From Rhizobium acidisoli (GTDB lineage: Bacteria; Pseudomonadota; Alphaproteobacteria; Rhizobiales; Rhizobiaceae): a stretch of DNA of 64,000 nucleotides. The stretch's first letter is position 1, and every line of letters begins with the position of its first letter. This document shows, piece by piece, positions 35,555 through 53,217 of the stretch. A program made the position numbers and the translations under genes. The notes beneath the pieces were generated by a model that saw only the letters and a list, made by a program, of their open reading frames with translations, was not told where the DNA came from and did not search any database. The stretch lies in contig NZ_CP035001.1 of the NCBI RefSeq assembly GCF_002531755.2, forward strand, positions 372,001 through 436,000, given 5' to 3'.

Positions 35555-35979
35555 GACGCTTTGAGAGGGGCGGATCCGCCAGACAGGATCGGCTCCTGTG
35601 GATCACAAGCCGACTGCGGAATGTCGTTTGACATCGCGGTGACCGCCTCGCATTTTCAACTTACCTCCGCGAGCGCCGGATAGAACGTACCAATTTAACG
35701 GCGAGGCCATTTGTCCTATCTGGAAAACGGTCATCGCCACAGCGGTGGTGCACCGGCTGCTCTGATGGGACCTCCGCTCCGTCGTGGCAACCAACCGAAA
35801 GATTGGATGATTCGAGATACGACGGAGATGGCGAACCGCGCCTATGTCGGCCAACGCGGTTCGGACATCTCCCAGGTGAAATTGTCGTCCATCTAATCGT
35901 TTCTGGGGAGGCTCGCCACAACTCTGCTTCAAATCGGAGTCCACATTCGCTCATTTGCCTGCGTCAGGACGGATCGAAC
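35555..35979. other. Intergenic region upstream of the two-component system
   Basis: No gene is supported in these 425 bases. Several short overlapping frames exist without motifs. The part near 35,980 is expected to hold the promoter of the response regulator gene; a single GCATTTTC at 35650 resembles the CATTTT repeats found before the downstream operon. Confidence 0.45.
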
Positions 35980-36636
35980 GTGCGCATTCTGCTTGTGGAA
36001 GACGACAGTATTCTCGGCTCGTCACTAAAAAGGGCACTGGAGAAGCACGCCTACGGCGTCGACTGGATGCGAGACGGCGAGTCGGGGCTCGAGGCGGCCG
36101 AGCAGTTGCTTTTTGCAGCCGTCATCCTCGATATCAACCTGCCGCTGCTTAGCGGAATCGAGGTTCTTAAAGGCGTGAGACGCAAAGGCAACACCGTGCC
36201 CATCTTGCTTTTGACGGCGCTCGACAACGTCCGGCGCAAGGTCGAAGGTCTCGACGAGGGAGCGGACGACTACCTGGTCAAACCGTTCGATCTCGACGAA
36301 TTGCTTGCCCGCCTGCGCGCGCTAATCCGACGACGCGACGGCCGGACTGAAAGCCTGCTTCGGTGCGGCGATGTCGAAATGGATCCGTCTGCAATGGTCG
36401 CGCGGAAAGGCAATATACAGGTACACACAACGGCAAAGGAGTTTCACCTGCTCAAGCTCCTGATGGAGCGCAGCGGTCGCTACGTGACGAAGAACGATAT
36501 CGAATACGCGCTTTACGATGCCTATAGCAGCGTTGAAAGCAATACCATCGAGGTAACCATCTACAATCTGCGCAAAAAGCTAGGCACCGAATTCATCAAA
36601 TCGATCCGCGGCATCGGCTACATGATCGAACGATGA
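35980..36636 (+). CDS. OmpR/PhoB-family response regulator
   Basis: From GTG 35980 the protein has 218 residues. The receiver has the acidic pair in LLVEDDSILG, phospho-acceptor D51 in VILDINLPLLSG, the threonine in LLLTALD and the lysine in DYLVKPFDLDEL. The C-terminal winged helix contains KEFHLLKLLMERSGRYVTKN, SSVESNTIEVTIYNLRKKLG and IRGIGYMIER, typical of the QseB/PmrA group. It overlaps the kinase gene by 4 bases. Its probable target is the operon starting at 38124, where CATTTT direct repeats lie. Confidence 0.93.
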   Translation: MRILLVEDDSILGSSLKRALEKHAYGVDWMRDGESGLEAAEQLLFAAVILDINLPLLSGIEVLKGVRRKGNTVPILLLTALDNVRRKVEGLDEGADDYLVKPFDLDELLARLRALIRRRDGRTESLLRCGDVEMDPSAMVARKGNIQVHTTAKEFHLLKLLMERSGRYVTKNDIEYALYDAYSSVESNTIEVTIYNLRKKLGTEFIKSIRGIGYMIER

Positions 36637-38009
36637 GCCCGTCAACCCTTACGCGCAAGCTCTTCCTGAGGATTGCCCCCGTGGTCGTGGTGACAATCCT
36701 GGTGATCGGCGCCTTCGCCTTCAACAGCGCCACGCGCGAGATCAACAATATCTACGACGCGCAGCTCATCAACGATGCGAACGTCTTGTGGGGACTGTTG
36801 CACAACCGGTTGCGCCACTCGCCGGAGCGCACGCCCCAACAGATCGATGACATCGATTTCAGCATGGACAATCAGCTCGCTTTCAACGAGGACGCGGACG
36901 ACTATGCCGATGCGCATATGTTCCGCGCCTGGGTGGACGGGAAGATCATGTTCTACTCCAGCACCGCATTTCTCTCCGACGTGCCGTACCAGAAGGCGGG
37001 CTTCACCGACCTTTCTTACCGCGGCGAGAACTGGCGGGTCTATTCGTTGCCGATCCCGGCTTCAGGCATCGTCATGGAAGTCGGTGAAAAGACGTCCCTA
37101 CGATACACTCTCGTTTCCAACATCCTTCTGAACCTGGTCTTTCCGCTGCTCGTACTGGTGCCGGTGATCGGCTTTCTGATTTGGCTCGGGATCAACAATG
37201 GCCTGCGGACCATCCACGGGCTTGTGCATCAGATCCGCACCCGTTCGCCGGACGATCTCTCAGCGATTGCCGTGGAGGGCCTGCCCAGGGACCTCCTGCC
37301 TCTCGGCCGGTCGATCAACCAGCTTCTCGAAAAGCTCGGCCGGTCGCTGACCCTTGAGCGGCGTTTTTCCGATCTGGCGGCCCACCAGCTGCGCACGCCG
37401 CAGGCAAGCGTCAAGCTGCTGCTGCAGATGCTTGCAAGCACCGATGACCAGCAGGAGCAGAAGGCGATCATCTCGGATCTGGTGACCAGCAACAACAGAG
37501 CCACCCATCTCATCGAGCAGTTGCTACGCCTTGCCAGGGTCAGCCACCATCCGCTCAATCCAATGCCGGTTCCGCTGTATCACATGATCGCGTCGACCGT
37601 GGCGGACTTTGGCAACATCATCAATAGCCGCAATCTCGACGTCTCGCTGGAAGGGCCGGAATCAGCCGAGATCAGGACGGATGAATCACTGCTGCAGATG
37701 ATGGTCAGCAACCTCCTAGACAATGCGATCAAATATACGCCTGTCGGCGGCATCATTGAGGTCATCCTCTCCTCTCAAGGGGAGTTCTGGCTGGTATCGA
37801 TCAGCGATAGCGGACCGGGCATAGCCCCCGTGGACCGGGAGGCCGTGTTCAAGCGGTTCTATCGCCTGGACACGCTCCATGCCGAGGGTGCCGGCCTTGG
37901 GCTTGCGATCGTCGCCGATACCGCCGAACGACTTTCTGTGTCGATCGCGCTTTCGACACCTCCCTGGGGTAACGGCCTGCGGGTTGAATTGCGCCTGCCC
38001 AGAGACTGA
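36633..38009 (+). CDS. Membrane sensor histidine kinase
   Basis: The 458-residue protein has one helix at ~10-30 (IAPVVVVTILVIGAFAFNSA), a periplasmic domain of about 130 residues rich in acidic residues (DIDFSMDNQLAFNEDADDYAD), a second helix at ~165-195, then a HAMP-like linker. The HisKA acceptor is in DLAAHQLRTPQASV, and the ATPase domain has SNLLDNAIKYTP, SDSGPGIAP and GAGLGLAIVAD. The architecture is QseC/PmrB-like, and the acidic periplasmic stretch could sense cations or cationic peptides (inference). It is translationally coupled to the response regulator by ATGA. Confidence 0.93.
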   Translation: MSPSTLTRKLFLRIAPVVVVTILVIGAFAFNSATREINNIYDAQLINDANVLWGLLHNRLRHSPERTPQQIDDIDFSMDNQLAFNEDADDYADAHMFRAWVDGKIMFYSSTAFLSDVPYQKAGFTDLSYRGENWRVYSLPIPASGIVMEVGEKTSLRYTLVSNILLNLVFPLLVLVPVIGFLIWLGINNGLRTIHGLVHQIRTRSPDDLSAIAVEGLPRDLLPLGRSINQLLEKLGRSLTLERRFSDLAAHQLRTPQASVKLLLQMLASTDDQQEQKAIISDLVTSNNRATHLIEQLLRLARVSHHPLNPMPVPLYHMIASTVADFGNIINSRNLDVSLEGPESAEIRTDESLLQMMVSNLLDNAIKYTPVGGIIEVILSSQGEFWLVSISDSGPGIAPVDREAVFKRFYRLDTLHAEGAGLGLAIVADTAERLSVSIALSTPPWGNGLRVELRLPRD

Positions 38010-38031
38010 GGCGCTGCTACCGGCGTCCGTT

Positions 38032-38055
38032 CATTTTTCATTTTCGCATCATTTT
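38032..38055 (+). promoter_or_regulatory. CATTTT direct repeats upstream of the lipid-type operon
   Basis: Three CATTTT hexamers lie at 38032, 38039 and 38050. The last two form CATTTT-N5-CATTTT, a tandem repeat with exactly 11-bp spacing, the usual layout of OmpR-family binding sites. It sits 69-92 bp before the first operon gene and just after the two-component genes, making that regulator the obvious candidate. Confidence 0.55.
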
Positions 38056-38123
38056 GCCCTCAGGCTTGCCTCATCGACTCTCGGTAGACACAGCCGCGGA
38101 TCAAGTCGAAGGGCGGCCATTGG

Positions 38124-38807
38124 ATGCAAATATTTTCCGATTTTGACGGCACGATTTCCATTCAGGATGTGACGGATATCGTCCTGTCCTGCTTTGCCGA
38201 TTCCGAGTGGGAAGAGATCGAGCAGGAATGGAAGGACGGTCGTATCGGCTCAGCCGAGTGCATGCGCCGCCAGATCGCCCTCATCCGGGCAAACCGGCCC
38301 GAGCTCGACGCACTCCTCGACACCGTGGCAATCGATCCAGGCTTCGTGGCCTTCCGTGATTACTGCCGCGAAAACGGCCTGCCGATCACCGTCGTCAGCG
38401 ACGGCGTCGATTACTTCATTCGCCACGTGCTGGCGCTGAACGGCATCAGGGATCTGCCCGTCATCGCCAATATCCTGACCCATCGGGTCGTCGATGGTCA
38501 CCACACCTATGCGCTTGCACCTTCGCCGGCGACAGCCGGCTGTTCGGCAGGCTCGGGCGTGTGCAAATGCAAGGTCATCGGCGGCATCGAGCGGCAGATC
38601 TATATCGGCGATGGACGCAGCGATTTCTGCGTCTCCGGCCGGGCCGGCCTCGTCTTCGCCAAGGGCAAGCTCGCCGATTACTGCAGCGACCAGGGCATTT
38701 CCTACATCGGCTTCGACGATTTCACCGACTTGATCCCAAAGATGCAAGCCGCCCTCCCCGGCATTGCGCGGGCCCCCCGCGCAATGCTCCAATCTTCAAT
38801 CGCATAA
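38124..38807 (+). CDS. HAD-family phosphatase (MtnX/SerB-like)
   Basis: The 227-residue soluble protein starts with the HAD motif I FSDFDGTISIQDVTD, has motif II in PITVVSDGVDYFI and motif III/IV in IYIGDGRSDFC, all intact, giving Mg-dependent phosphate hydrolysis from a small molecule. It is closest in layout to MtnX-like and phosphoserine phosphatase-like HAD-IB enzymes. A cysteine-rich loop (CSAGSGVCKCK) is unusual and could bind metal. It opens the nine-gene operon, 19 bp before the aminotransferase. In that setting it may remove phosphate from a phosphorylated head-group precursor; this is inference. Confidence 0.82.
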   Translation: MQIFSDFDGTISIQDVTDIVLSCFADSEWEEIEQEWKDGRIGSAECMRRQIALIRANRPELDALLDTVAIDPGFVAFRDYCRENGLPITVVSDGVDYFIRHVLALNGIRDLPVIANILTHRVVDGHHTYALAPSPATAGCSAGSGVCKCKVIGGIERQIYIGDGRSDFCVSGRAGLVFAKGKLADYCSDQGISYIGFDDFTDLIPKMQAALPGIARAPRAMLQSSIA

Positions 38808-38826
38808 CCAGACCGAGAGGTTCACC

Positions 38827-40248
38827 ATGAACATTGTCAACGCCGACACCTTCAAGGAAAATACGGCGCTCACCGAAAAGTCGGAAGCCGAGCTGCGGTT
38901 TCTGGAGGAGACCTATTGCTCGCATGGCGATACGGTCCACTACGCGGTGGAACCGAAATTCTTCGAAGAATGCGAAGGCTCCTACGTCTATGACGCAAAG
39001 GGGACCGCGTTTCTCGATCTGCAGATGTGGTATTCCGCCGTCAATTTCGGCTATCGCAACGAAAGGCTGAATGCCGCCGTCCATCGGCAGCTCGACCGGC
39101 TGCCGCAAGTCGCCTCGCAATATCTGCATCGCGAGAAGGTTGAGCTTGCGACGATGATCGCGCAGGATGCCGAGCGCAAGTTCGGCCGCAAGGGGCGCGT
39201 TCATTTCAATGTCGGCGGATCCCAGGCAATCGAGGATTCGCTGAAGCTGGTGCGGAACTATACCGGCGGCAAAAGCCTGATGTTCGCCTTCGAAGGCGGC
39301 TATCACGGCCGCACGCTGGGCGCCTCCGCGATCACGTCAAGCTATCGCTATCGCCGCCGCTTCGGCCATTTCGGCGAAAGGGCGCAATTCGTCGAGTTTC
39401 CTTACCATTTCCGCGGCCCGAAGGGCATGACGAAGGAGGAATACGGCGAGCATTGCGTCCGCAAGTTCGCTCGCCTCTTTGAAAGCGAATATAACGGCGT
39501 CTGGGATCCCAAGGTCGGCAGTGCCGAATATGCGGCCTTTTATATCGAGCCCATCCAGGGCACCGGCGGCTACGTCATTCCACCGAAGAACTTCTTCACC
39601 GAACTCAAGAAGGTCCTGGATCAGCACGGCATCCTGCTTGTCGTCGACGAGATCCAGATGGGCGTCTACCGGACCGGAAAACTCTGGTCGATCGAGCATT
39701 TCGGCGTCTCGCCCGACGTTCTCGTATTCGGCAAGGCGATCACCAATGGGCTTAACCCGCTCTCGGGTGTCTGGGCCAGGGAGGAAATGATCAATCCGAC
39801 CGTCTTCCCGCCTGGCTCCACCCATTCCACCTTCGCCAGCAATCCGATGGGAACGGCCGTTGCGCTCGAAACCATGAAGATGCTGGAAGAGGAGGATTTT
39901 GGCGCGGCGATCATGGCCAAAGGCGCCTATTTCCTCGATGGCCTGAAGCAGCTTCAGAAGCGCCATGCGATCGTCGGTGACGTCGACGGGCTCGGATTGG
40001 CGCTGAGATGCGAAATCTGCAAGGAAGACGGTTTCACGCCCGACAAGGCGACGATGGACTGGCTTTGCGACGAAGGCATGAAGGGCGACCTCCAGGTCGG
40101 GCACAAGGTCTATGGCCTCGTTCTCGATGTCGGCGGCTACCACAAAAACGTCATCACCCTGGCGCCGAACCTGCTGATCTCACACAAAGAGATCGATCTG
40201 GCGCTGACGCTGCTCGACCAGCTCTTCACGCGCGCGGCCCTGAGGTAG
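38827..40248 (+). CDS. Class III pyridoxal-phosphate aminotransferase
   Basis: From ATG 38827, preceded by GAGAGG, the protein has 473 residues. The fold-type I motifs are intact: NVGGSQAIEDSLKL for the phosphate site, GGYHGRTLGASAIT, the cofactor-binding aspartate in LVVDEIQMGVYRTG, the Schiff-base lysine in VLVFGKAITNGLNPLSG, and the HSTFASNP motif. Relatives transaminate omega-amino groups of ornithine, diaminobutyrate, putrescine or acetylornithine. It is followed by an arginase-family gene 4 bp later. Together these two could produce or trim a diamine or amino-acid-derived moiety. Confidence 0.87.
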   Translation: MNIVNADTFKENTALTEKSEAELRFLEETYCSHGDTVHYAVEPKFFEECEGSYVYDAKGTAFLDLQMWYSAVNFGYRNERLNAAVHRQLDRLPQVASQYLHREKVELATMIAQDAERKFGRKGRVHFNVGGSQAIEDSLKLVRNYTGGKSLMFAFEGGYHGRTLGASAITSSYRYRRRFGHFGERAQFVEFPYHFRGPKGMTKEEYGEHCVRKFARLFESEYNGVWDPKVGSAEYAAFYIEPIQGTGGYVIPPKNFFTELKKVLDQHGILLVVDEIQMGVYRTGKLWSIEHFGVSPDVLVFGKAITNGLNPLSGVWAREEMINPTVFPPGSTHSTFASNPMGTAVALETMKMLEEEDFGAAIMAKGAYFLDGLKQLQKRHAIVGDVDGLGLALRCEICKEDGFTPDKATMDWLCDEGMKGDLQVGHKVYGLVLDVGGYHKNVITLAPNLLISHKEIDLALTLLDQLFTRAALR

Positions 40249-40252
40249 CACG

Positions 40253-41206
40253 GTGCAGCTTCTCCTCCTTCATCTCGACGATGCTTTGGAGTTGCAGCCT
40301 GATTTCGTGCGCGCCTGCACGCTTGCAGGCGCGTACCACCATGTCGACAAGCGGGGCGGCAGTGCAATCAGATTGTGGGGCAAGCAGAAGATGCTCTCCG
40401 ACCTTGGCCGGGATATCTCCCGGTCACTGCCCTCTCGAGGCAGGGGTCCGCAGCTTGCCTTCATGGGCTCGGGCGATTTCCACCATGTGACCGCTCTGCT
40501 TCTCGACACGGCCCTCGAACGGCGGCCGGTTTCGACCACCCTCGTTCATTTCGACAATCACCCGGACTGGGTGAACTTCGAGGGCGGCATGCATTGCGGC
40601 TCGTGGATCAACAGCGCCCTGTCGAACCCCAAGATAGACAAGGTCGTCACGGTCGGCGTCTGCAGCGGCGATCTGCGCAACCCCGAACGCAAGGGAGCCA
40701 ATCTGCGCTGGCTGAGGGAAGGCAAGCTGGAGCTTTACCCTTACGAGCATCCGCCAAGCCGTGTCTCTGCCGAATACGGCAGCGGCGCCAGCTACCGGCA
40801 GGACGGGCGCGCCCTGTACTGGAATTCCATCTCCGCGATCGGCGAGGACAATTTCATCGACCGGATCCTCAGCCGTATCGGCACCGAAGCAGTTTATGTC
40901 ACGGTCGACAAGGACGTGCTGGCCGCCGATGACGCCGTGACCAACTGGGATCAGGGGCGCATGCGGCTGCCCTATCTGATGGCGCTGATCAGCGAGATCG
41001 GCAGCCGCCATCGCATCATCGGCGCCGATGTCATCGGCGACTATTCGGTGCCGAGCTATGCTGGCGGCTTCACGACCCGGCTCCTGAAGCAGGCGGAAAT
41101 CTTCATCGATCAGCCGCGGCTTCGGCAGGCGGCGGACGCCGTGCGCAACATCAACAGCGCCGCAAATCACGCGTTGCTGGAAGTCCTGGCGGAAGCAATG
41201 GAATGA
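40253..41206 (+). CDS. Arginase/agmatinase-family (ureohydrolase-like) protein
   Basis: The 317-residue protein starts at GTG 40253. Metal-ligand motifs of the ureohydrolase fold are recognisable but variant: GSGDFHHVTALLLD, LVHFDNHPDWVNF in place of the usual DAHxD, and VTVDKDVLAADDAVTNWDQG in place of SxDxDxxDP. The fold and metal site are likely kept; the substrate may not be arginine. The family cleaves C-N bonds of guanidino compounds or related amides. It overlaps the first SMR-like gene by 4 bases. Confidence 0.78.
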   Translation: MQLLLLHLDDALELQPDFVRACTLAGAYHHVDKRGGSAIRLWGKQKMLSDLGRDISRSLPSRGRGPQLAFMGSGDFHHVTALLLDTALERRPVSTTLVHFDNHPDWVNFEGGMHCGSWINSALSNPKIDKVVTVGVCSGDLRNPERKGANLRWLREGKLELYPYEHPPSRVSAEYGSGASYRQDGRALYWNSISAIGEDNFIDRILSRIGTEAVYVTVDKDVLAADDAVTNWDQGRMRLPYLMALISEIGSRHRIIGADVIGDYSVPSYAGGFTTRLLKQAEIFIDQPRLRQAADAVRNINSAANHALLEVLAEAME

Positions 41207-41556
41207 CTGGCGGCCTCACCTTGCCGACGTTCGGCCTGATCCTGTTCTGCGTGGTCGCGGAAACCGCCCGCGAGGTTTGCTTCAAGCAGGCGGCCAGCGA
41301 CAGCGCCGTTCTGGCAACCCTGGCCAAGCCGCTGACCTGGCTCGGCATCGCCTTCTGGGCGATCGAGCTGCTTGCCTGGGCGGCCGTGCTCGCCCGCGTG
41401 CCGCTGACCACCGCCTTTCCGCTGATGGCGCTCAGCTACGTCGGGACCGTGGTCGCCGGCGCGGTCGTCTTCAAAGAAAAGATCAACCTTCGCCACGCGA
41501 CGGGCGTGTTTCTCATTACCGCCGGCGTGGCCTGTGTGGGAGCAACCGGACTATGA
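41203..41556 (+). CDS. SMR/EamA-like small membrane protein 1
   Basis: The 117-residue protein has four hydrophobic helices, as in small multidrug resistance and ArnE/ArnF-type proteins: LILFCVVAETAREVCFKQAA, WLGIAFWAIELLAWAAVLA, TAFPLMALSYVGTVVAGAVV and GVFLITAGVACVGA. A glutamate in helix 1 (VVAE) corresponds to the proton-coupling acid of SMR transporters. Start and stop overlap its neighbours by 4 bases each. A second, differently built member lies four genes later, so the pair could form a heterodimeric flippase as ArnE-ArnF do; this is inference. Confidence 0.82.
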   Translation: MTGGLTLPTFGLILFCVVAETAREVCFKQAASDSAVLATLAKPLTWLGIAFWAIELLAWAAVLARVPLTTAFPLMALSYVGTVVAGAVVFKEKINLRHATGVFLITAGVACVGATGL

Positions 41557-42425
41557 AAATCTTTGCTCATACCAGATGGGATGTCGCCCCCGTGCTTGCG
41601 GCCTTTGCCCATCTCGCCTTTGACGTCTACCTGATCGTCGGTTTCGAAAGCCGGCCGCTCTGGATCTCCGCGATCCTGGGCTGCCTCTATGCCGTATCGA
41701 TATCCTGGAACATCAACAGCATCTCGCACAATTTCATCCACACGCCGTATTTCAAGCCGCGCTGGATGAATTACGGCTTCAGCCTGCTGGAGTCAGTGGC
41801 GATCGGTTTTTCTCAGACCTATTACCATTGGGTGCATATGCGCCATCACTCCGGCAACAGCGACCGGCCGGATGAAAACGGCGGTACGATCGATCTACTG
41901 TCGATCTACCGCTACGGCCGAAACGGCGAGCCGGAGAATGTCTGGTCCTACACGCTGAAGAGCTTCTTCCGCGACAGTCTCGGCGATATTCACAAAGGCA
42001 TCGCCAAGAACCGTCCTTTCGATGCCGCATGGGGCCGTTTCGAACTGCTTGCTTTCCTCGGCCTAGCGGCAATCGCGCTGATCTACGATTGGAAGGCCGT
42101 GCTGTTTTTCGTGCCGTTTTACTATGCCGGCAACTGCCTGTCGTCGCTCAACGGCTATTATGAACACCTGCATGGCGATCCGGACGAACCGATTGCCTGG
42201 GGCGTGAGCAGCCACAAGCCGTTCTACAACTGGCTTTGGTTCGGCAATGGTTACCATGCGGAACATCATTACCGGCCACGCACCCACTGGACGAAGCTTG
42301 CGGCACTGCACGAACAGATCAGGGAGGAACAGGAAAAGGCCGGCACGCATGTGATCAGCACCTGCCATGCCCTCGGCTTCATGGCTCCGGAAAACCGCGA
42401 GATGGAGCTTCGGCATGAGGTCTGA
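41553..42425 (+). CDS. Membrane fatty acid desaturase-type di-iron protein
   Basis: The 290-residue integral membrane protein has the three histidine boxes of the desaturase/hydroxylase superfamily: HNFIH, HMRHH (in HWVHMRHHSGN) and HAEHH (in GYHAEHHYRPRTHW), plus EHLHG. These bind two irons that activate oxygen. Such enzymes introduce double bonds or hydroxyls into acyl chains. It lies in the middle of the operon, coupled on both sides (ATGA at 41553; 11-bp overlap with the hydrolase gene). The product double bond would be a substrate for the CFA synthase at the end of the operon. Confidence 0.88.
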   Translation: MKIFAHTRWDVAPVLAAFAHLAFDVYLIVGFESRPLWISAILGCLYAVSISWNINSISHNFIHTPYFKPRWMNYGFSLLESVAIGFSQTYYHWVHMRHHSGNSDRPDENGGTIDLLSIYRYGRNGEPENVWSYTLKSFFRDSLGDIHKGIAKNRPFDAAWGRFELLAFLGLAAIALIYDWKAVLFFVPFYYAGNCLSSLNGYYEHLHGDPDEPIAWGVSSHKPFYNWLWFGNGYHAEHHYRPRTHWTKLAALHEQIREEQEKAGTHVISTCHALGFMAPENREMELRHEV

Positions 42426-43230
42426 GCAGTTGAGCTTCTTCCTGCCAGGAACCAATGGCAAAGGTGTGCTGCTGATCCACGGCCTGACGGGCGCCCCAGC
42501 CGAAATGAAGCTCGTGGCGCGCCGGGTCAATCGGCGCGGCTACAGCGTTCACGCGCCGTTGCTGGCCGGTCATGGCGAAGACGTCAAGACGCTGCGTCGC
42601 ACGCAGTGGGAAGACTGGCTGGCAAGCGTCGTGCGGGGATCGGAATTCCTGGCAGAGCGCACGCAGACGGTTTTTGCCGCCGGCATTTGTGTCGGCGGCA
42701 AGCTGTCGTTGCTGGCTGCCAAGCACCGGCCGGACCTGATCAAGGCTGTCGCGATCTACTCGCCCTGCTTCCACTACGACGGTTGGGACGTTCCGCGACA
42801 CTATACGATGCTGTCGCCGCATATCGGCTGGCTATCGCGGGTACCTTTTCTCGACCGCCTCAACTTCAGCGAAAACCAATCGCTCGGCATCAAGGACGAG
42901 CGGATGCGGCGCATGGTCGAAGGCATGGCGGGCGAAGGCATGCTCGAGAAATTCCCCGGCCGCGGCATCGTCGAGATGTATCGATTGGGCAAGGCACTGC
43001 GCGGAGCCCTGCCGCAGATCCAGACACCGACGCTGATCCTCCACGCCGAAGAGGACGATCTCAGCAACCCCCGGCATGCGCTTTACATATCCGATCACAT
43101 CGGCGGTCCGCATGAACTCAGGTGGATCAAGGACAGCTACCACATGATCCATCTCGACCGCCAGCATCGACAGGTCGCGGAATTCACCGCCAATTTCTTT
43201 GAGGCAGGCCATGCTGAAGCTCGCCTATAG
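42415..43230 (+). CDS. Alpha/beta hydrolase (carboxylesterase/lipase-type)
   Basis: The 271-residue soluble hydrolase has the oxyanion motif LLIHGLTGAPAEMKLVARR, a nucleophile region FAAGICVGGKLSLLA in which the elbow reads G-I-C-V-G, so the nucleophile would be cysteine rather than serine. The acid lies in ILHAEEDDLSNP and the histidine in SYHMIHLDRQHRQV. Layout resembles monoacylglycerol lipase/Est30 proteins. The start at 42415 lies inside the desaturase gene. The Cys-for-Ser change suggests acyl transfer rather than hydrolysis; this is inference. Confidence 0.85.
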   Translation: MRSEQLSFFLPGTNGKGVLLIHGLTGAPAEMKLVARRVNRRGYSVHAPLLAGHGEDVKTLRRTQWEDWLASVVRGSEFLAERTQTVFAAGICVGGKLSLLAAKHRPDLIKAVAIYSPCFHYDGWDVPRHYTMLSPHIGWLSRVPFLDRLNFSENQSLGIKDERMRRMVEGMAGEGMLEKFPGRGIVEMYRLGKALRGALPQIQTPTLILHAEEDDLSNPRHALYISDHIGGPHELRWIKDSYHMIHLDRQHRQVAEFTANFFEAGHAEARL

Positions 43231-44356
43231 ACAGTTTGTTGCCGAAGGTGGCGGGCCGGTTGCACAGGTCTACGACACGATCCGCGCCATCGGCCGCGAA
43301 GCCTGGAACGCCTGCTATCGCGGTCATGTCGAAGATTATGATTGCCTGCTCGCGATCGAAGACGCCGGCATCGGCGAATTCGACTGGCGCTACATTGCGA
43401 TCGTCGAGAACGGAAGGATCAGCGCCGCCATGCCGGCGTTCCTCTGCCCCTATCCGCTGGACACGACACTGGAAGAGGGCTTGCCGCGCCGGCTGATCCG
43501 CCGCGTGCGACGACACGTTTCAGGTTTCCTAGTGCTGCGGCTTGCCTGCCTCGGCTCGCCGTGCACCGAAAACGGCGTCATAGGCTTTCATGCCGAGGTG
43601 CCCGAGGCACGTCGTGAGGCACTGCTCGGCGACCTGCTCGACGCCTTCGAAAGTCTTGCGGCTCGGGAAGCCTGCGCGCTGATGGGGGTTAAGGATATTC
43701 CCGCGCCGGTCGCGCTGGAGTTCGGCACCCTGTTTTCAGAACGGCGCTATGCGACAATCGGCGGCCTGCCATCCGCCTGGCTCGATATCGATTTTCGGAC
43801 GATTGACCAATATATGGCCAAGCTGTCTGCGGGCACGCGCAAGGACATGCGGCGCAAGATGAAGTCCTTCGACGCCGTCAGGGTCGAGATCAGAACGGAT
43901 GTGGGTGACGTGCTGCCGCGTATCATGTCGCTCTACCACGACACCCGCGATCGCAGCGAATGGCAGTTCGAAGAGCTGACGCCGGCATATTTTGAAGGGA
44001 TACTCACCCATATGCGCGGCCGTTCGTTCTGCGTCCTCTATTTTGTCGAGGACGAGCTGCTGGCTGCCAATCTCATCTTTCATGATGATCGCGTCGCGAT
44101 CGACAAGTTCTTCTGCATGGACGGCGAGCGAGGACGGCCCTACAACCTTTATTTCCTCAGCTGGTTCACCAATCTGCGCTATTGCCTCGATCGCGGCCTT
44201 TCCCATTATCAGAGCGGCCAGGCCTATTATGAAAACAAGGTCCGGCTCGGCAGCCAGCTTACGACAAACACCATGTTCTTCCGCCACCGCAATCGGCTGC
44301 TGCAGGCGCTGTTGCGGCTGGTCTCCCCGCTCTTTTCGCAGGATGAGGCCAAGTAA
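43211..44356 (+). CDS. GNAT/FemAB-like acyltransferase
   Basis: The 381-residue protein begins at ATG 43211 inside the hydrolase gene. It is built like FemAB/GNAT-fold transferases: a first half (YDTIRAIGREAWNACYRGHV...) and a second half with LSAGTRKDMRRKMKSFDAVRVEI, FCVLYFVEDELLAANLIFHD, DKFFCMDGERGRPYNLYFLS and HYQSGQAYYENKVRLG, the conserved end of this group. Members transfer acyl or aminoacyl groups to amines. In this operon it could N-acylate an amino head group. No membrane segment is seen. Confidence 0.75.
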   Translation: MLKLAYRQFVAEGGGPVAQVYDTIRAIGREAWNACYRGHVEDYDCLLAIEDAGIGEFDWRYIAIVENGRISAAMPAFLCPYPLDTTLEEGLPRRLIRRVRRHVSGFLVLRLACLGSPCTENGVIGFHAEVPEARREALLGDLLDAFESLAAREACALMGVKDIPAPVALEFGTLFSERRYATIGGLPSAWLDIDFRTIDQYMAKLSAGTRKDMRRKMKSFDAVRVEIRTDVGDVLPRIMSLYHDTRDRSEWQFEELTPAYFEGILTHMRGRSFCVLYFVEDELLAANLIFHDDRVAIDKFFCMDGERGRPYNLYFLSWFTNLRYCLDRGLSHYQSGQAYYENKVRLGSQLTTNTMFFRHRNRLLQALLRLVSPLFSQDEAK

Positions 44357-44784
44357 TGACGTCCATGCGCCTGACATGGCTCGCCGTGCCCGTCCTCAAC
44401 ACGCTTTTCCAGATCTTCACCAAGCTTGGCGCGACGCAGCTCGGCAATGCCGAGGGGACGACCTGGCTTAAGGATGCGCTGAGCTCGCACTGGATCCTGG
44501 CAGCCGTCGTGGTCGAGATCGTCTGCTTCTTCATCTGGATGACGGTGCTCGCCGAACTCGACCTCAGCAAGGCCTTTCCGCTTTCCGGCATCAGCTACGT
44601 CCTGATCATTGCCACCGGCTGGTTTGCTTTTGGCGAACCGATCGTCAGCCTTCAGATCGTCGGCAGCGCTCTGATCCTCGCCGGTGTCTGGCTGATCGCC
44701 GGCGCATCCGAAAAAACGGGCTCCGTCAGTGACAACGATGTTGGACCGATCCTGCCGCACGCCCATGTCAGCAAGGATCGATGA
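44356..44784 (+). CDS. SMR/EamA-like small membrane protein 2
   Basis: The 142-residue protein has four helices (TWLAVPVLNTLFQIFTKLGA, HWILAAVVVEIVCFFIWMTV, SKAFPLSGISYVLIIATGWF, LQIVGSALILAGVWLIAG) and a charged C-terminal tail of about 25 residues. Helix 1 lacks the glutamate seen in the first SMR-like protein, which resembles the asymmetry of ArnE/ArnF-type subunits. The ATG overlaps the TAA of the GNAT gene by one base, and the TGA overlaps the CFA gene start. It is probably the partner of the protein at 41203. Confidence 0.8.
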   Translation: MTSMRLTWLAVPVLNTLFQIFTKLGATQLGNAEGTTWLKDALSSHWILAAVVVEIVCFFIWMTVLAELDLSKAFPLSGISYVLIIATGWFAFGEPIVSLQIVGSALILAGVWLIAGASEKTGSVSDNDVGPILPHAHVSKDR

Positions 44785-46121
44785 TGCAGCCAACACAAAA
44801 TTTCATCCTCGGTAATGCGAAGGGCGCTGCATCGGCGTTCAGCAATCGGGTTCTGGAGCGTGCGCTCGCGCGCATCGTCACCCGCGGCTGCCTCAACGTC
44901 ACAACATCCAATGGGCAGCAGCTCTCCTTCGGCGACGGGTCCGGAGAGCAGATACATGTCAGCTTTGCCGATCTTGCAGCGCAATGGGCATTTCTCATCG
45001 ATGCCGATCTGCGGCTCGGCGAACTCTATATGGATCGCCGCTTTCTCATCGAACGGGGCTCGCTCCACGACTTCCTGGCGATGATGCTGCGTGAGGCGCA
45101 GAACGCCAAGCATCCGCTCGTCGCCAGGGTGGTCGATCGCGCCCGCACCTGGCTGCGCATCTTCCGCCATCGCAATTTTCCGGCGCGCTCCAAAGCCAAT
45201 GTCGCCCACCATTACGATCTCGATGGCCGGCTCTACGAACTCTTCCTCGACGGGGACCGGCAATATTCCTGCGCCTATTTCGAGAGCCCCGACCAATCGC
45301 TCGATGCGGCGCAACACGCCAAGAAGCGGCATCTCGCCGCGAAATTGCAGCTTGGGCCCGGCAAGAGCGTGCTCGATATCGGTTGCGGCTGGGGTGGGCT
45401 CGCCCTGCACATGGCGAGGCATGTGCAGGGCGGGCATGTGCTCGGCATCACCCTGTCTGAGGAGCAGCATGGCTACGCCCAGAAGCGGCTTGCCGAACAC
45501 GAGCGGGTGGAGGCAGGCACCCAGTTTGTCCTGCAGGATTATCGCAGCCTGAGCGGACGGTTCGACCGGATCGTGTCGGTCGGCATGTTCGAGCATGTCG
45601 GCCTCGCATCCTACCGCGCCTTCTTCGAGAAATGTGCGGACCTGCTGGAAAATGACGGCATCATGGTTCTGCACACGATCGGCTGTTCGGCGACGCCCGG
45701 CTTCACCACGCCTTGGCTCGACAAATATATCTTTCCCGGCGGCTATATTCCCGCGCTCTCGGAAATCCTGCCCGAAATTGAAAAGGCCGGTCTTGCGGTT
45801 GCCGATATCGAGGTCCTGCGCCTGCACTATGCCTGGACGCTGGCACATTGGCGAAAGCGCTTCCTGGCCCGCTGGCAGGAGGCTGCCGCACTTTACGACG
45901 AACGCTTCTGCCGCATGTGGGAATTCTACCTTGCCAGCGCCGAAGCCGCATTCCGTTACGAAGATCTGGTGGTTTTTCAGATCCAGCTAAGCAAGCGCAA
46001 CGACGTCATTCCCGTGACGCGAGACTATATCGCCCAGCATGAAACAGCGGCGGCGCAAAGTTCAAAAGCCGATCTGGAAGGAACGGCTGAGCGTGATACC
46101 GATCACGTTCTGGTCGGCTGA
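44781..46121 (+). CDS. Cyclopropane-fatty-acyl-phospholipid synthase family methyltransferase
   Basis: The 446-residue protein matches CFA synthases throughout: an N-terminal lipid-associated domain, NVAHHYDLDGRLYELFLDGD, YSCAYFE, the S-adenosylmethionine motif VLDIGCGWGGLALHMAR, GITLSEEQHGYAQKRL, QDYRSLSGRFDRIVSVGMFE and the final FQIQLSKRNDVIP. The enzyme methylenates cis double bonds of membrane lipids. A housekeeping cfa gene is normally present in rhizobia, so this may be dedicated to the operon product. Its last 60 bp overlap the 3' end of the convergent MipA/OmpV gene. Confidence 0.9.
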   Translation: MMQPTQNFILGNAKGAASAFSNRVLERALARIVTRGCLNVTTSNGQQLSFGDGSGEQIHVSFADLAAQWAFLIDADLRLGELYMDRRFLIERGSLHDFLAMMLREAQNAKHPLVARVVDRARTWLRIFRHRNFPARSKANVAHHYDLDGRLYELFLDGDRQYSCAYFESPDQSLDAAQHAKKRHLAAKLQLGPGKSVLDIGCGWGGLALHMARHVQGGHVLGITLSEEQHGYAQKRLAEHERVEAGTQFVLQDYRSLSGRFDRIVSVGMFEHVGLASYRAFFEKCADLLENDGIMVLHTIGCSATPGFTTPWLDKYIFPGGYIPALSEILPEIEKAGLAVADIEVLRLHYAWTLAHWRKRFLARWQEAAALYDERFCRMWEFYLASAEAAFRYEDLVVFQIQLSKRNDVIPVTRDYIAQHETAAAQSSKADLEGTAERDTDHVLVG

Positions 46122-46886
46122 GCCAAGCCTTGAGGTGATCGGGCTATCGGCGGCATCGCCCACCAGGCGGTTATATTTGTCGTAGACCTGCACGCTCCAG
46201 ACCGGTGAAAGCGTATAGGTGGCGGCCACCGTGAAACCGATGGATTTGAGACCGCCATTCGCGTCGAACGCCTCGACGCGACCACTCTTGGCAGCTTCCT
46301 CGGCGGACACCGCGAAATTGTTGCGCATATAGGGGCCGTTTGCCAGAGACATGCGCGGACCGGCAGACAGCAGCCAGCGATCGCCGACCGGCTGGAACCA
46401 ATCGAAATAGAGATCGGCAAGCAAACCGTCGCCGCCCCACAGCGCCTGACGCGTTTCCGCCCGCACACGCAGGTGATCCTCTATCGGCCAAAATTGCGCA
46501 AAGACACCGGCGTCCAAGTTCCACTGGACCGAATGCAGACCCTGCAGTTCGGATTCGTCGAATGCCGACCGCCCTCCTCTCAGGCTGACGACAGGGCCGA
46601 TATCGACACCACCGATATCGAACATCCCGTAGTCGATATTATCGTCCGGCGCGCCGTATTCGGGCGCTTCGCCGAGACGACGAAAATCGAAAGACGGCAT
46701 ACCGCTGAAGGAAAGGTGCTTCGATCCTTCATAGGAAGGACCGTATTCGACGGATCCGCCAAGGGTTATGATCCACTGGTTATCGGAGGATTTTGCATCC
46801 TGGCTCAAGGCCGAACGAGACCCCAGGAGTAGTAGCAGCAACGATACCGCCGCCGCCCGGAATAATGCCGTGTTCGATGAGGCCAT
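46062..46886 (-). CDS. MipA/OmpV-family outer membrane protein
   Basis: From ATG 46886 the protein has 274 residues with a signal peptide (ALFRAAAVSLLLLLLGSRSALSQ). The mature part is a beta-barrel of the MipA/OmpV family: WIITLGGSVEYGPSYEGSKH, SFDFRRLGE, GPVVSLRGGR and a final NVIGITLSRSFQIGF with terminal phenylalanine. It is located in the outer membrane. It converges on the CFA synthase gene with a 60-bp overlap of coding ends. Related proteins appear beside two-component systems responding to membrane-active compounds, which fits the cluster. Confidence 0.85.
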   Translation of the reverse strand: MASSNTALFRAAAVSLLLLLLGSRSALSQDAKSSDNQWIITLGGSVEYGPSYEGSKHLSFSGMPSFDFRRLGEAPEYGAPDDNIDYGMFDIGGVDIGPVVSLRGGRSAFDESELQGLHSVQWNLDAGVFAQFWPIEDHLRVRAETRQALWGGDGLLADLYFDWFQPVGDRWLLSAGPRMSLANGPYMRNNFAVSAEEAAKSGRVEAFDANGGLKSIGFTVAATYTLSPVWSVQVYDKYNRLVGDAADSPITSRLGSADQNVIGITLSRSFQIGF

Positions 46887-47071
46887 AAACGCCCTACTCC
46901 GTACCTCAAAGCCAGCGAACGATCCACTTTCTGAGGCGGCGCCGCTGCAATCTTTTAAAGCAAATTTCCCTTCTATGCCAACTGCCTTAGGGGCATCCAG
47001 AGCATGCGGCGTCGCACTATTTCTTTCCCGCGGAGACGCAAATACTAGCAGGCTGCGCGACGTATCAAGCC

Positions 47072-49867: not shown

Positions 49868-51190
49868 TTATTCAGGCAGATCGATAATGACAGATGCTAT
49901 AAGCCCAGGCCGCTCCTCGCGAGGAGCGAGCGTGACGCGCGCCCCTTGTCGTTCGGCTGCCGCTTTCGCGATGGCAAGCCCTAAACCGCTTCCCTCGCTG
50001 TCCTGAGGCCCTGCCCGGAAGAACCGTTCAAAGACGCGCGGCAAGTCTTCCTCCGCGATGCCGGGACCGGTGTCGCGGATTTCGATTCGAATTTCTTGCC
50101 CGCCAGTCAGCACCGCGACGTCGACGATTCCGCTCGCAGGCGTGTATCGAACGGCGTTCTCGATGAGGTTTTCAAGAATGATTTCGAAGTCGGCCAGCGC
50201 TCCGATGGTGAAAGCCTTGTCCTGGCGTGTGATGCCCAGGTCAATCCCCCGGCTCTCGGCAAGGGGGGTGAGGCGCGCAACCGTGTCGAGCGCGAGCTGG
50301 ACAAGGTCGATCGCCTGCGACGTGGGCGCGGTCTCATGGGCGTCGTAGCGCGCCAGCCGCAAGAGCTTGTTCACGAGGCGGGTGGCCCTGCCGATTCCGG
50401 CGTCGAGCTCAGCTAAACCCTGAGAAAAACGGCCGTCGCGGTCGTCGTGCCGAAGGTTGTCGATTTGAATTTGAAGCGCCGAGAGCGGTGTGCGCAGTTC
50501 ATGGGCCGCATCCGAGATGAACCGCCGCTGTCTCTCCAGCAATGCGCGTAGCCGGGCGAGCAGCAGATTGATCGAACTTACGAACGGAACGACTTCAGCT
50601 GGCACGTCATCGATCGGAACAGGGCTGTCCACGGTTGTGTCCCGGGAGGCGACCGCGACGGCCAGGCGATTGAGCCGGGCCATGATCCGATCGATAATCC
50701 AGCTCAGCGTCAGCAATGATAGCGGAATCAGAACGATAATAGGAAGCGCCGCCTGGAGCGCCGCATTCGCCGCCAGTTCCTCCCGGACGCTCATATCCTG
50801 GGAGACCTGAACAGTTCGATCCGGCGCGGCCAGCGTGTAGACCCGCCAATAGTTGCTGACGGTCGAAATGTCGACAAACCCGGTCGCTGGTTGGCGGGGA
50901 ATACCAACGGCGGGATGCGATTGTCGCAACGGCTTGCCCGCCGCATCCCAGGCCTGGATGACGAAGTCGTCTTCGGGATCGTGCGGCGCGCCGCTATCTG
51001 GGCCTGTTTCTGGCGATGAACGCGCATCACCGACATAGAGCGCGATCTGCCGTAGCTGATTGTCGAGGAAGTCGGATGCCTCGTTCCTGACGAGGAAGTA
51101 CGATGTTGTCGCCGCGCAGACGCCGATGGTCGCCATTAACCCGGCAAGCCATATGAAGGCCGTGCGTCGGATCGAAATCGTGCCTTTCAC
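49868..51190 (-). CDS. Membrane sensor histidine kinase
   Basis: The 440-residue protein has an N-terminal helix (AFIWLAGLMATIGVCAATTSYF), a periplasmic loop of about 130 residues with an acidic stretch (PHDPEDDF), a second helix (ALPIIVLIPLSLLTLSWIID), a HisKA domain with the acceptor in SDAAHELRTPLSALQIQ, and an ATPase domain (ENLIENAVRYTP, DTGPGIAEEDLPRVFERFFR, GSGLGLAIAKAAAE). QseC/TctE type. It is coupled by 4 bases to the response regulator gene upstream. A divergent exporter operon is the likely output. Confidence 0.93.
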   Translation of the reverse strand: MKGTISIRRTAFIWLAGLMATIGVCAATTSYFLVRNEASDFLDNQLRQIALYVGDARSSPETGPDSGAPHDPEDDFVIQAWDAAGKPLRQSHPAVGIPRQPATGFVDISTVSNYWRVYTLAAPDRTVQVSQDMSVREELAANAALQAALPIIVLIPLSLLTLSWIIDRIMARLNRLAVAVASRDTTVDSPVPIDDVPAEVVPFVSSINLLLARLRALLERQRRFISDAAHELRTPLSALQIQIDNLRHDDRDGRFSQGLAELDAGIGRATRLVNKLLRLARYDAHETAPTSQAIDLVQLALDTVARLTPLAESRGIDLGITRQDKAFTIGALADFEIILENLIENAVRYTPASGIVDVAVLTGGQEIRIEIRDTGPGIAEEDLPRVFERFFRAGPQDSEGSGLGLAIAKAAAERQGARVTLAPREERPGLIASVIIDLPE

Positions 51191-51843
51191 TTGGGAACCA
51201 TCCAGCCGGCCCCGCGGACGTTGCGTATGATGTCCTTGTCGAACTTGCGCCGCACGTAATGGATGAGCACGTCGACAGCGTTGCTTTCCACCTCTTCACC
51301 CCAACCATAGAGCCTTTCCTCGAGCTGGCTGCGCGATAGAATGGTGCCGGGACGTTCCAATAGTGCCTGAATCAAGACAAACTCGCGCGCTGGCAACACT
51401 TCGCCGCACCCACGATATTTCACCTCATGGCTCGACAGATCGAGCTCGATTTCGCTCGTGCAGAGGATCGAAACCGCCTGACCTCCATGTCGGCGCAGTA
51501 CGGCACGCATGCGCGCCAGCAGTTCTTTGACCTCGAACGGCTTCACCAGGTAGTCATCGGCCCCGAGGTCGAGCCCCGTGACGCGATCGTCGAGTTCGTC
51601 ACGGGCGGTGATCACCAGGATTGGTCTCCTGTCGCCGGCCATCCGGAGCGAACGCAGGATTTCCAGGCCCGAGCGGCCGGGCAAACCGAGGTCGAGCAAC
51701 GCAAGACCATGGCCGCCGACGGCGACGGCTTCGCCCCCGAGGTGCCCGTCACGCACCCAATCTGCCGACATGCCGGCATCGTCGAGGGCTTGCACGAGAG
51801 CCCGGCCAAGCATGACATCATCTTCGATCACAAGAACACGCAT
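51187..51843 (-). CDS. OmpR/PhoB-family response regulator
   Basis: The 218-residue regulator has the acidic pair in VLVIEDDVMLG, phospho-acceptor D51 in LALLDLGLPGRSG, ITARDEL, and the lysine in DYLVKPFEVKELLARM. The winged helix contains REFVLIQALLERPGTILSRS and NAVDVLIHYVRRKFDKDII. Its gene is the first of the kinase operon and starts 134 bp from the divergent exporter operon. A TCTAA direct repeat with 11-bp spacing lies between them. Confidence 0.93.
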   Translation of the reverse strand: MRVLVIEDDVMLGRALVQALDDAGMSADWVRDGHLGGEAVAVGGHGLALLDLGLPGRSGLEILRSLRMAGDRRPILVITARDELDDRVTGLDLGADDYLVKPFEVKELLARMRAVLRRHGGQAVSILCTSEIELDLSSHEVKYRGCGEVLPAREFVLIQALLERPGTILSRSQLEERLYGWGEEVESNAVDVLIHYVRRKFDKDIIRNVRGAGWMVPK

Positions 51844-51913
51844 GTTTCAAGATAACCTAAACCGATTTCTCCTGCACAGATTCTGATGCAGCCGACTGCA
51901 TTCCGGCTGATCA

Positions 51914-51930
51914 TCTAAGACCCTTCTAAT
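51914..51930 (+). promoter_or_regulatory. TCTAA direct repeats between the second two-component system and the exporter
   Basis: TCTAAG-N5-TCTAAT (51914-51930) is a tandem repeat with an 11-bp step, the standard geometry for two OmpR-family monomers bound head to tail. It lies 71 bp before the response regulator start on one side and 48 bp before the secreted-protein gene on the other, so it could serve both directions. Confidence 0.5.
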
Positions 51931-51977
51931 TCTGCTGGCGTCATATGCCTTCTCAGGTTTGCAGAGGAGCGCCGATC

Positions 51978-52550
51978 ATGACTGTCCGCTATCGAATATC
52001 CGCCGCATTGGGTGTGCTGCTCATGGTATCATCCGGCGCATTTGCTCCCGCTGTGGCGCAGAAGAAACTCGTTGCGCCTGAGACGAACCCGCCGGGGGAC
52101 ATTCCGGACAACCAAGTCTTCGTTACCTACAACTCTCCCGACGGATTTGATCTGAAGGTGCCGGAGGGATGGTCGCGGTCCGCGATCGACCATGGCGTTC
52201 GGTTCTTCGATAAATACGATGAGATAGTTGCTACCGTTGGCATCGCGAATGCAGCGCCAACGGCTTCTTCAGCAAGGGCCCACGAGATCCCAGACCTCAA
52301 GACGGCCGAGCACGCTGTCAAAGTCACGGCGGTCAAGGATGTAAGGCTCGCAGCGGGAGCGGGTGTCCGCATCAGCTATGTGTCGAGCTCGGCGCCTAAT
52401 TCGGTCACGAGCAAACAGATCAGGCTCGAGCACGAGCGCTTCATCCTGTTCAAGAATGGCAAGGCGGTCACGCTTGATCTTGCCGCTCCGGCCGGTGCCG
52501 ACAACGTCGACCAATGGCAACTGATCTCCAATTCCTTGCAGTGGAGGTGA
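51978..52550 (+). CDS. Secreted hypothetical protein (190 aa)
   Basis: The protein has a signal peptide (MTVRYRISAALGVLLMVSSG, cleavage probably after AVA). The mature domain is a single beta-rich unit with FVTYNSPDGFDLKVPEGWSR, IVATVGIANAA, VRISYVSSS and VTLDLAAPAGADNVDQWQLI, a pattern like small periplasmic lipocalin- or PsbP-like domains. No family is certain. GAGGAGC precedes the ATG. It is the first gene of the exporter operon, 4 bp before the ATPase gene, so it may be its periplasmic partner. Confidence 0.75.
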   Translation: MTVRYRISAALGVLLMVSSGAFAPAVAQKKLVAPETNPPGDIPDNQVFVTYNSPDGFDLKVPEGWSRSAIDHGVRFFDKYDEIVATVGIANAAPTASSARAHEIPDLKTAEHAVKVTAVKDVRLAAGAGVRISYVSSSAPNSVTSKQIRLEHERFILFKNGKAVTLDLAAPAGADNVDQWQLISNSLQWR

Positions 52551-52554
52551 GTTC

Positions 52555-53217
52555 ATGGCTGCGCTGGAGGCGACCGAGCTTTACCGCTTCTTTCATGCCG
52601 GCGACGACGAAGTCGTGGCTCTGCGCGGGGTGGCCCTCACGCTCGATGCCGGAGAATTCACCGCGTTGAGAGGCCCGTCGGGCAGCGGAAAATCGACGCT
52701 CCTTGCCTGCCTGGCCGGGATCGATGAGCCGGACGGTGGCGTCGTGTCTGTCCTGGGCGAGCGCGTGACCCGACGCCCCGAGCCGGAGCGGGCTCGGCTT
52801 AGGGCTCGCCATTTTGGCATGCTCATGCAATCCGGCAATCTGTTCGAGCATCTGACGGTCCGGGCCAACATTCGTCTCCAGATGGAGATTTCCGGTCGCG
52901 GCAGACCGGACGAAATCGATGGCCTTGTCGGCGGGTTGGGCCTCGACGGGCTCGCCGACGCACTACCTTCCCACCTTTCAGGCGGTGAGGCAGCTCGCGC
53001 TGGCTTGGCCGTGGCGCTCGCTGCAAACCCGGCAATCCTGCTCTGCGATGAGCCGACCGCCGAAGTCGATGCGGCGACAGAACAACTCGTCATTGATCGC
53101 CTCGTCGAAAACTGCCGGAGCGGCGGCGCCGTCCTGATCGTCACGCACAGCCCAGCACTCGCCGCACGGGCCGATCGCATTGTGGACATTCGGGATGGAG
53201 GCATCGTGCATGGCTAA
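52555..53217 (+). CDS. ABC transporter ATP-binding protein 1 (MacB/LolD-type)
   Basis: The 220-residue ATPase has Walker A in LRGPSGSGKSTLLACLAGID, a Q-loop in MLMQSGNLFEHLTV, the signature LSGGEAARAGLAVALAANP (more usually LSGGQxQR), Walker B in ILLCDEPTAEVD and the H-loop in LIVTHSPALAARAD. The LolD/MacB group energises FtsX-type permeases that work on periplasmic substrates. The unusual signature may mark an asymmetric pair with the second ATPase, whose gene overlaps by 8 bases. Confidence 0.9.
   Translation: MAALEATELYRFFHAGDDEVVALRGVALTLDAGEFTALRGPSGSGKSTLLACLAGIDEPDGGVVSVLGERVTRRPEPERARLRARHFGMLMQSGNLFEHLTVRANIRLQMEISGRGRPDEIDGLVGGLGLDGLADALPSHLSGGEAARAGLAVALAANPAILLCDEPTAEVDAATEQLVIDRLVENCRSGGAVLIVTHSPALAARADRIVDIRDGGIVHG

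Follow-up and report, generated by a model that had tools for sequence, protein, structure and literature searches.

Gene content and conservation of the locus

The window analysed here is a stretch of 64 000 nucleotides from Rhizobium acidisoli (positions 372001-436000 of contig C4, in a 7.5-Mb genome of five contigs), and its positions 35980-46121 encode a response regulator and a sensor kinase followed by nine closely packed genes. All eleven genes, which lie on the + strand, were confirmed with the domains and tight spacings that a first-pass annotation of the sequence had given them. The regulator gene, RR (35980..36636, with a GTG start), encodes an OmpR-family protein (PF00072 and PF00486), and the kinase gene, HK (36633..38009), encodes a protein with a 2CSK_N sensor domain (PF08521, together with PF02518 and PF00512). 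A gap of 114 bp between HK and the next gene holds a conserved operator of four TCA half-sites with an exact 11-bp period (38038..38073, + strand), and because this gap separates the kinase from the genes downstream, the nine may form a transcription unit of their own.

These nine genes encode an MtnX-like HAD-IB phosphatase (HAD, 38124..38807), a class III aminotransferase that serves as the signature of the set (AT3, 38827..40248), a ureohydrolase-fold enzyme (ARG, 40253..41206), a small EamA/ArnE-like membrane protein (SMR1, 41203..41556), a membrane fatty-acid desaturase (DES, 41553..42425), an alpha/beta hydrolase (ABH, 42415..43230), a FemX/GNAT-fold transferase (FEM, 43211..44356), a second small EamA/SMR membrane protein (SMR2, 44356..44784), and a cyclopropane fatty acid synthase (CFA, 44781..46121). 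Read from the sequence with stop codons included, HAD and AT3 are 19 bp apart and AT3 and ARG 4 bp apart, and the remaining neighbours overlap (ARG/SMR1, SMR1/DES and SMR2/CFA by 4 bp each, DES/ABH by 11 bp, ABH/FEM by 20 bp, and FEM/SMR2 by 1 bp). The interval described in the first-pass annotation ended with a further gene that had been left unnamed. This is a convergent mipA/ompV outer-membrane protein gene (46062..46886, - strand; PF06629, 134.5 bits), for which 46886 was chosen as the likely start codon and which shares the 60 bp at its 3' end with CFA.

An ARG alignment was used to scan named genomes, giving at least 597 matching stretches; a relative is encoded in 520 of them, and the 80 best of these 520 were used. 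The set is biased to close kin because the nearest relatives were kept. Profile searches of the 80 loci (cited below by L numbers) recovered ARG in 80, HAD and AT3 in 79 each, SMR1 in 78, ABH and FEM in 77 each, and SMR2 in 76, and these seven genes are taken as the core. They stand on one strand and in the same order in 75 of the 80 relatives. Five loci depart from this: the contigs of L026 and L088 are short, the genes of L091 are rearranged, the only core gene of L095 is ARG, and in L059 the SMR2 gene was missed by the profile table yet is in place by tblastn at 68% identity. The other members of the locus are less constant, with DES in 64 loci, MipA in 60, and CFA in 52. The expectation that the nine genes would be kept together elsewhere was thus borne out for the seven-gene core and not for the nine as one indivisible set, as DES and CFA are optional.

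The named relatives of the ARG protein that match best are from Rhizobium, many of them R. leguminosarum, and the gene set was found in Rhizobium, Phyllobacterium, Agrobacterium, and Brucella/Ochrobactrum. Its distribution within the family is patchy: an ARG match at E <= 1e-10 was present in six of 199 family genomes, the source genome included, and a near-full-length match of at least 54% identity only in the source genome and two others. On plasmids, AT3 was found in 32 of 72,556 PLSDB records (E <= 1e-100).

A second copy of the operon and mipA was located on contig C2 of the same genome (window 35791-46984 against C2:225609-236792, 92.4% identical). One RepC gene is present on each of C4 and C2, so both look like repABC replicons, and the C2 copy lies ~ 16 kb from the repC of that replicon. 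In this copy all eleven reading frames are open and align end to end without a stop, and in those operon genes that are not identical the ratio of nonsynonymous to synonymous divergence (dN/dS) between the copies is 0.07-0.20. The corresponding value for mipA is 0.33, and its aligned stretch has one stop, which probably precedes the true start. Recent gene conversion between the replicons looks likely, since ARG and SMR1 are identical in DNA while the neighbouring AT3 and DES have diverged (dS 0.16 and 0.22). Comparison with L016 gave dS values of ~ 0.8-1.1 for RR and HK, 0.15-0.28 from HAD to FEM, and 0.6-0.7 for SMR2 and CFA, as would be expected had recombination replaced the central part of the operon. 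Together, the order conserved in 75 of 80 relatives and the second copy in the genome show that the grouping of these genes is more than chance.

A separate block at window positions 49868-56529 encodes a second two-component system, a hypothetical protein, two ABC ATPases, and an 884-amino-acid FtsX-type permease. A 90%-identical version sits 146 bp from the regulator end of the C2 operon copy, and a block of this type comes after CFA in Rhizobium sp. CIAT894 (L229); among the 80 named loci it was found in only one or two. The block may export or sense the product of the operon.

The search was extended to 398 genomes from across the Pseudomonadota. Here ARG was found in at least 16 genomes (a lower bound, with up to five candidates scored per genome) and AT3 in 25, all 16 ARG genomes falling within the 25. 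With kinship ignored, the hypergeometric probability of this co-occurrence is 1.5e-22 by genome and 3.6e-13 by genus. Of the 15 ARG genomes other than the source, 12 have the seven core families together on a single stretch, with gene order and strand differing between genomes; of the other three, two have loci that run off their contigs and the third has its genes divided between two contigs. For one of the 15, the reading combined two segments from one contig. The core gene set is older than its gene order. Of the 15 shuffled loci, 10 (L124-L133) have FEM next to ARG, and from this adjacency the two may act as a pair. One group of shuffled-core genomes is close to Stenotrophomonas maltophilia, its FEM being 95-96% identical to that of this species. 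On a Xanthomonas sacchari plasmid the cluster comprises HAD-AT3, genes for a ketoacyl synthase and an acyl carrier protein (ACP), FEM-ARG, and a DegT aminotransferase-SMR-SMR-ABH group, with HlyD-ABC-TolC adjoining. Bartonella plasmids from bat faeces carry AT3-FEM-ARG near an MBOAT acyltransferase; in that of Bartonella sp. HY406 (L227, 11971-17974) the three genes stand beside a hypothetical protein and an MBOAT O-acyltransferase.

Operator, regulator and sensor kinase

The operator pattern of four TCA half-sites matches once in the window, against 0.02 matches expected. In the whole 7.5-Mb genome the operon's own site, with up to three mismatches allowed, occurs only at the two operon copies, and the bare pattern occurs at both copies and at one unrelated tandem repeat on contig C1. 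The strict TCA form was found upstream of HAD in 52 of 79 relatives. A T(C/A)A form was found there in 72 of the 79 and never in shuffled sequences, a count that is descriptive because the form was picked after the alignment had been seen. It was absent upstream of RR, HK, AT3, ARG, and FEM, and was present upstream of CFA in five of 51 cases. At the seven loci without a site (L075, L086, L089, L090, L091, L092, and L094) the regulator is missing or only 31-51% identical. Of the 72 loci that bear the site, 70 have a regulator at least 66% identical, and in the other two (L056 and L088) the contig ends before RR.

Operator and regulator thus co-vary across the loci. Direct repeats spaced by 11 bp are the usual site of OmpR-family regulators, and two-component control of the operon, which had been proposed from the gene content of the locus, is well supported by these sequence comparisons, with RR as the protein that would bind the repeats. 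Neither protein reached the QseBC equivalog cut-offs, although these models gave the best NCBIfam match for the regulator (QseB, 203.9 bits against 345) and a score of 193.1 bits against 475 for the kinase (QseC).

The predicted periplasmic loop of the HK sensor domain is acidic (NEDADDYADAH) and shows few substitutions across 17 sequences, that of the window included; L058 was left out of this alignment on grounds of length or absence. According to one report, the Pseudomonas aeruginosa MipA protein is a proposed polymyxin co-sensor working with ParRS, and MipA genes often adjoin two-component genes (PMC10936184). Given the acidic loop and this precedent, an envelope signal is likely. By analogy, candidates for that signal are acid, cations or cationic peptides, as suggested by the loop and the adjacent MipA. 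The resemblance to the MipA-MipB/ParRS system lies in a MipA/OmpV protein beside a two-component system; unlike there, MipB was not seen at the present locus and the output operon differs.

Enzyme families and acyl-chain modules

HAD scored 105.5 bits with TIGR01489 (cut-off 81.55), and its motifs DFDGTI, SDG, and GD.SD are conserved in a 25-row alignment. AT3 is a class III aminotransferase by its PF00202 score (257.6 bits against 30.5) and by the presence of the lysine and aspartate that we take to be the residues binding pyridoxal phosphate (PLP). Its GKAITNGLNP and DEIQMG segments align with gamma-aminobutyrate (GABA) aminotransferase, and the lysine and DEIQMG are conserved in 28 rows. 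The protein is 65-76% identical to 23 relatives outside its own genome and 55% identical to one more. That last, divergent AT3 stands alone beside a sulfotransferase-family gene (PF13469) in L197 (8911-11228), a neighbourhood hinting at another use of this type of aminotransferase. Mini-clusters of ACP-ketoacyl synthase-HAD-AT3-ABH were also observed in L199, L200, and L201, and no FEM, ARG or SMR genes were seen in the stretches examined there.

ARG has the predicted ureohydrolase fold, with the arginase metal-ligand positions (H, DxHxD, and DxD) in place. Its scores fall far below the cut-offs for agmatinase and arginase proper (24.5 against 302 for PRK02190; 18.8 against 174.3 for TIGR01230), and a profile search returned weak agmatinase- or arginase-type matches and one cobalt chelatase. 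Single-sequence searches of PDB sequences with ARG, and likewise with DES, gave no match. These results bear on whether the locus might be an arginine or polyamine catabolism operon with no lipid product. The label 'arginase' that ARG carries in the sources would fit such an operon, as would the resemblance of AT3 to ornithine, putrescine, and GABA aminotransferases; nevertheless, the low agmatinase score, the lack of a PDB relative, and the acyl-chain and membrane genes that it leaves unexplained make catabolism highly improbable. The model cut-offs weaken a polyamine reading in general, and a plain ArnEF reading with it. An acid-stress study of R. leguminosarum mentions an arginase and an ornithine aminotransferase with neighbouring tags, which were taken to be another gene pair.

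FEM gave no match in a profile search. Its predicted fold is closest to those of FemX, Sbb17, and MprF and has the two GNAT domains of the FemXAB type, so on this model FEM could as well transfer an aminoacyl group as a fatty-acyl group. PF04339 and PF13480 were the only Pfam matches, and at ~ 36 bits, against ~ 390-550 for typical members, FEM is a distant subfamily of PF04339. Five further weak PF04339 matches had no core gene nearby, and judged from their open frames four of these loci resemble exopolysaccharide or exosortase clusters. SMR1 is ArnE-like, though at 51.9 bits against a cut-off of 92 (ArnF, 39.2 against 99; the NCBIfam scan did not extend to SMR2), and lies just under the PF00892 cut-off (28.0 against 28.2), which SMR2 exceeds (32.8 bits); the flippase-like pair of the first-pass annotation is retained in that qualified form.

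An MprF/Arn-like system would make use of the same proteins, with FEM adding an amino acid from aminoacyl-tRNA to a lipid amine (either already present in the cell or made by the operon), ARG converting a transferred arginine to ornithine, and the SMR pair flipping the product; this is considered unlikely. The locus resembles the arn (4-amino-4-deoxy-L-arabinose) genes and PmrAB in its two-component control, in having an aminotransferase and an SMR pair of the ArnE/ArnF kind, and in its putative envelope output. It departs from them in the sub-threshold SMR1, in the lack of ArnA-, ArnC-, and ArnT-type domains among the operon Pfam hits, and in the family of its aminotransferase, which is class III whereas ArnB is of the DegT family, a DegT enzyme being found only in clusters of other lineages. 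The LPG-synthase C-terminal domain of MprF was not seen in FEM, which is of another sequence family, and unlike MprF the operon has a separate SMR pair as putative flippase and many extra enzymes.

ABH (PF12146, 72.3 bits) has a cysteine at the likely nucleophile position (GICVG), as do 79 of 93 sequences, the other 14 having serine; the six serine-type examples displayed all lie outside the 80 named loci. DES (PF00487, 100.4 bits) has three histidine boxes in its translation. CFA contains the CMAS domain (PF02353, 303.7 bits against 27) and narrowly misses the NF053839 equivalog (590.6 against 600). Among 111 AT3 loci, DES was present in 66 (a few genomes being counted twice), a ketoacyl synthase in seven, neither in 38, and both in none. 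CFA accompanies DES in 51 of 52 loci, and in some Phyllobacterium loci (such as L058 and L062) it stands on the opposite strand several kilobases away. The ketoacyl synthase and ACP belong to clusters of other lineages and lie outside the Rhizobium operon itself. In view of this mutual exclusion and of the CFA-DES pairing, the two sets look like alternative tail-tailoring modules on one product, and their alternation, with kinship ignored and short of proof, is the strongest evidence for a lipid.

Genes for HlyD-ABC-TolC stand beside several of the clusters, and could belong to a secreted small molecule resembling rhizobitoxine or mangotoxin (an antimetabolite, toxin or signal), which would leave through the SMR proteins and, in other lineages, TolC-type exporters. 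Rhizobitoxine synthesis uses a dihydroxyacetone phosphate aminotransferase and the desaturase RtxC (PMC3222319), and the mangotoxin protein MboF has two EamA domains (PMC3355146). Since the CFA synthase and the ketoacyl synthase with ACP indicate acyl chains, and the linkage to the regulator-kinase pair and MipA indicates the envelope, a secreted molecule is thought doubtful.

A candidate envelope-lipid pathway

A lipid product, as the first-pass annotation had proposed, is well supported from the sequence by DES, CFA, and the ketoacyl synthase and ACP of other lineages. The favoured interpretation, held with about even confidence, is that the operon encodes an inducible pathway dedicated to a nitrogen-bearing envelope lipid that has as yet no name. 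The kinase would sense an envelope signal and the regulator would bind the four 11-bp repeats before HAD, switching on the nine genes. AT3 would aminate a keto precursor and HAD would strip a phosphate, giving an amine part such as a serinol-like unit. FEM would link an acyl or aminoacyl group to this amine, ARG would trim a guanidino, amidino or other amide group, and ABH would cut or transfer an acyl group. In Rhizobiales DES and CFA would desaturate and cyclopropanate the acyl tail, a place taken by the ketoacyl synthase and ACP in other lineages, and SMR1/SMR2 would flip the finished product. The head group, all the substrates, the product, and the order of the reactions are putative, and so are the polyamine head group, the acylation of an amine by the GNAT protein, and the sequence of building, acylating, flipping, and cyclopropanating put forward in the first-pass annotation; the amine component is backed by the conserved catalytic residues of AT3 and by the predicted fold of FEM.

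By its reaction, RtxA would be the nearest precedent for amine synthesis by AT3 and HAD. As described in PMC3222319, RtxA converts dihydroxyacetone phosphate to serinol phosphate and then serinol, and RtxA and RtxC combine an aminotransferase and a desaturase in a rhizobial operon, a likeness drawn from their description; RtxA is there fused to a sulfhydrylase-like domain, unlike AT3.

A more specific form of the lipid pathway, regarded as quite improbable, is a plasmid-spread route to a ceramide-like lipid that is independent of serine palmitoyltransferase and induced by envelope stress. In this form the ketoacyl synthase and ACP (a desaturated fatty acyl group in Rhizobiales) would supply the keto or acyl chain, AT3 and the phosphatase would make the amine backbone, the FemX-fold enzyme would N-acylate or aminoacylate it, and the SMR pair would flip the product. 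Bacterial ceramide synthesis (Spt, AcpR, AasR, CerR, and CerS), as described in PMC11324152 and PMC11087976, likewise groups genes for a PLP enzyme and an N-acyltransferase with an ACP-type gene in a single region. The operon differs in that its PLP enzyme is a class III aminotransferase and its ketoacyl synthase-ACP genes lie outside the Rhizobium locus, and FEM and CerS are likened by type only. An Spt-type alpha-oxoamine synthase domain was not seen in the Pfam hits of ten operon proteins (CFA was scanned by NCBIfam).

Several observations weigh against a dedicated lipid pathway. No compound is known for the operon, the closest matches of AT3 are amino-acid racemases and enzymes of the GABA/ornithine type and not a lipid enzyme, and among the operon enzymes only broad HAD-subfamily models exceed NCBIfam cut-offs (SMR2 being outside that scan). 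CFA is one of four strong CFA synthases in the genome, and such enzymes may act on bulk phospholipids instead of a special product. The gene set also comes apart in places: nine of the 25 AT3 genomes have no ARG match, eight of them having HAD-AT3-ABH (one with SMR1 and SMR2 as well) and the ninth, L197, AT3 alone; one of the nine (G356) has FEM on another contig. FEM occurs without ARG nearby in L204 and L226, the ARG of L095 has no other core gene with it, the Bartonella plasmids showed none of the remaining four core genes in the 20-25 kb examined (within ~ 12 kb in L227), and MipA was not found by profile search in 20 of the 80 loci.

The annotations seen give the cluster genes generic names only, and the literature searched, from which most subscription papers were absent, yielded no description of this gene set, in keeping with the first-pass annotation, which knew of no described pathway with these genes. 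The operon offers a concrete gene set, an operator, and a signature enzyme, AT3. If the ceramide-like route were correct, it would represent a second, convergent origin of sphingolipid-type architecture. If an inducible envelope lipid is made, it would join Arn, MprF, and ornithine lipids as one more means of coping with the acid or cationic peptides encountered in soil, in plants, and in hosts.

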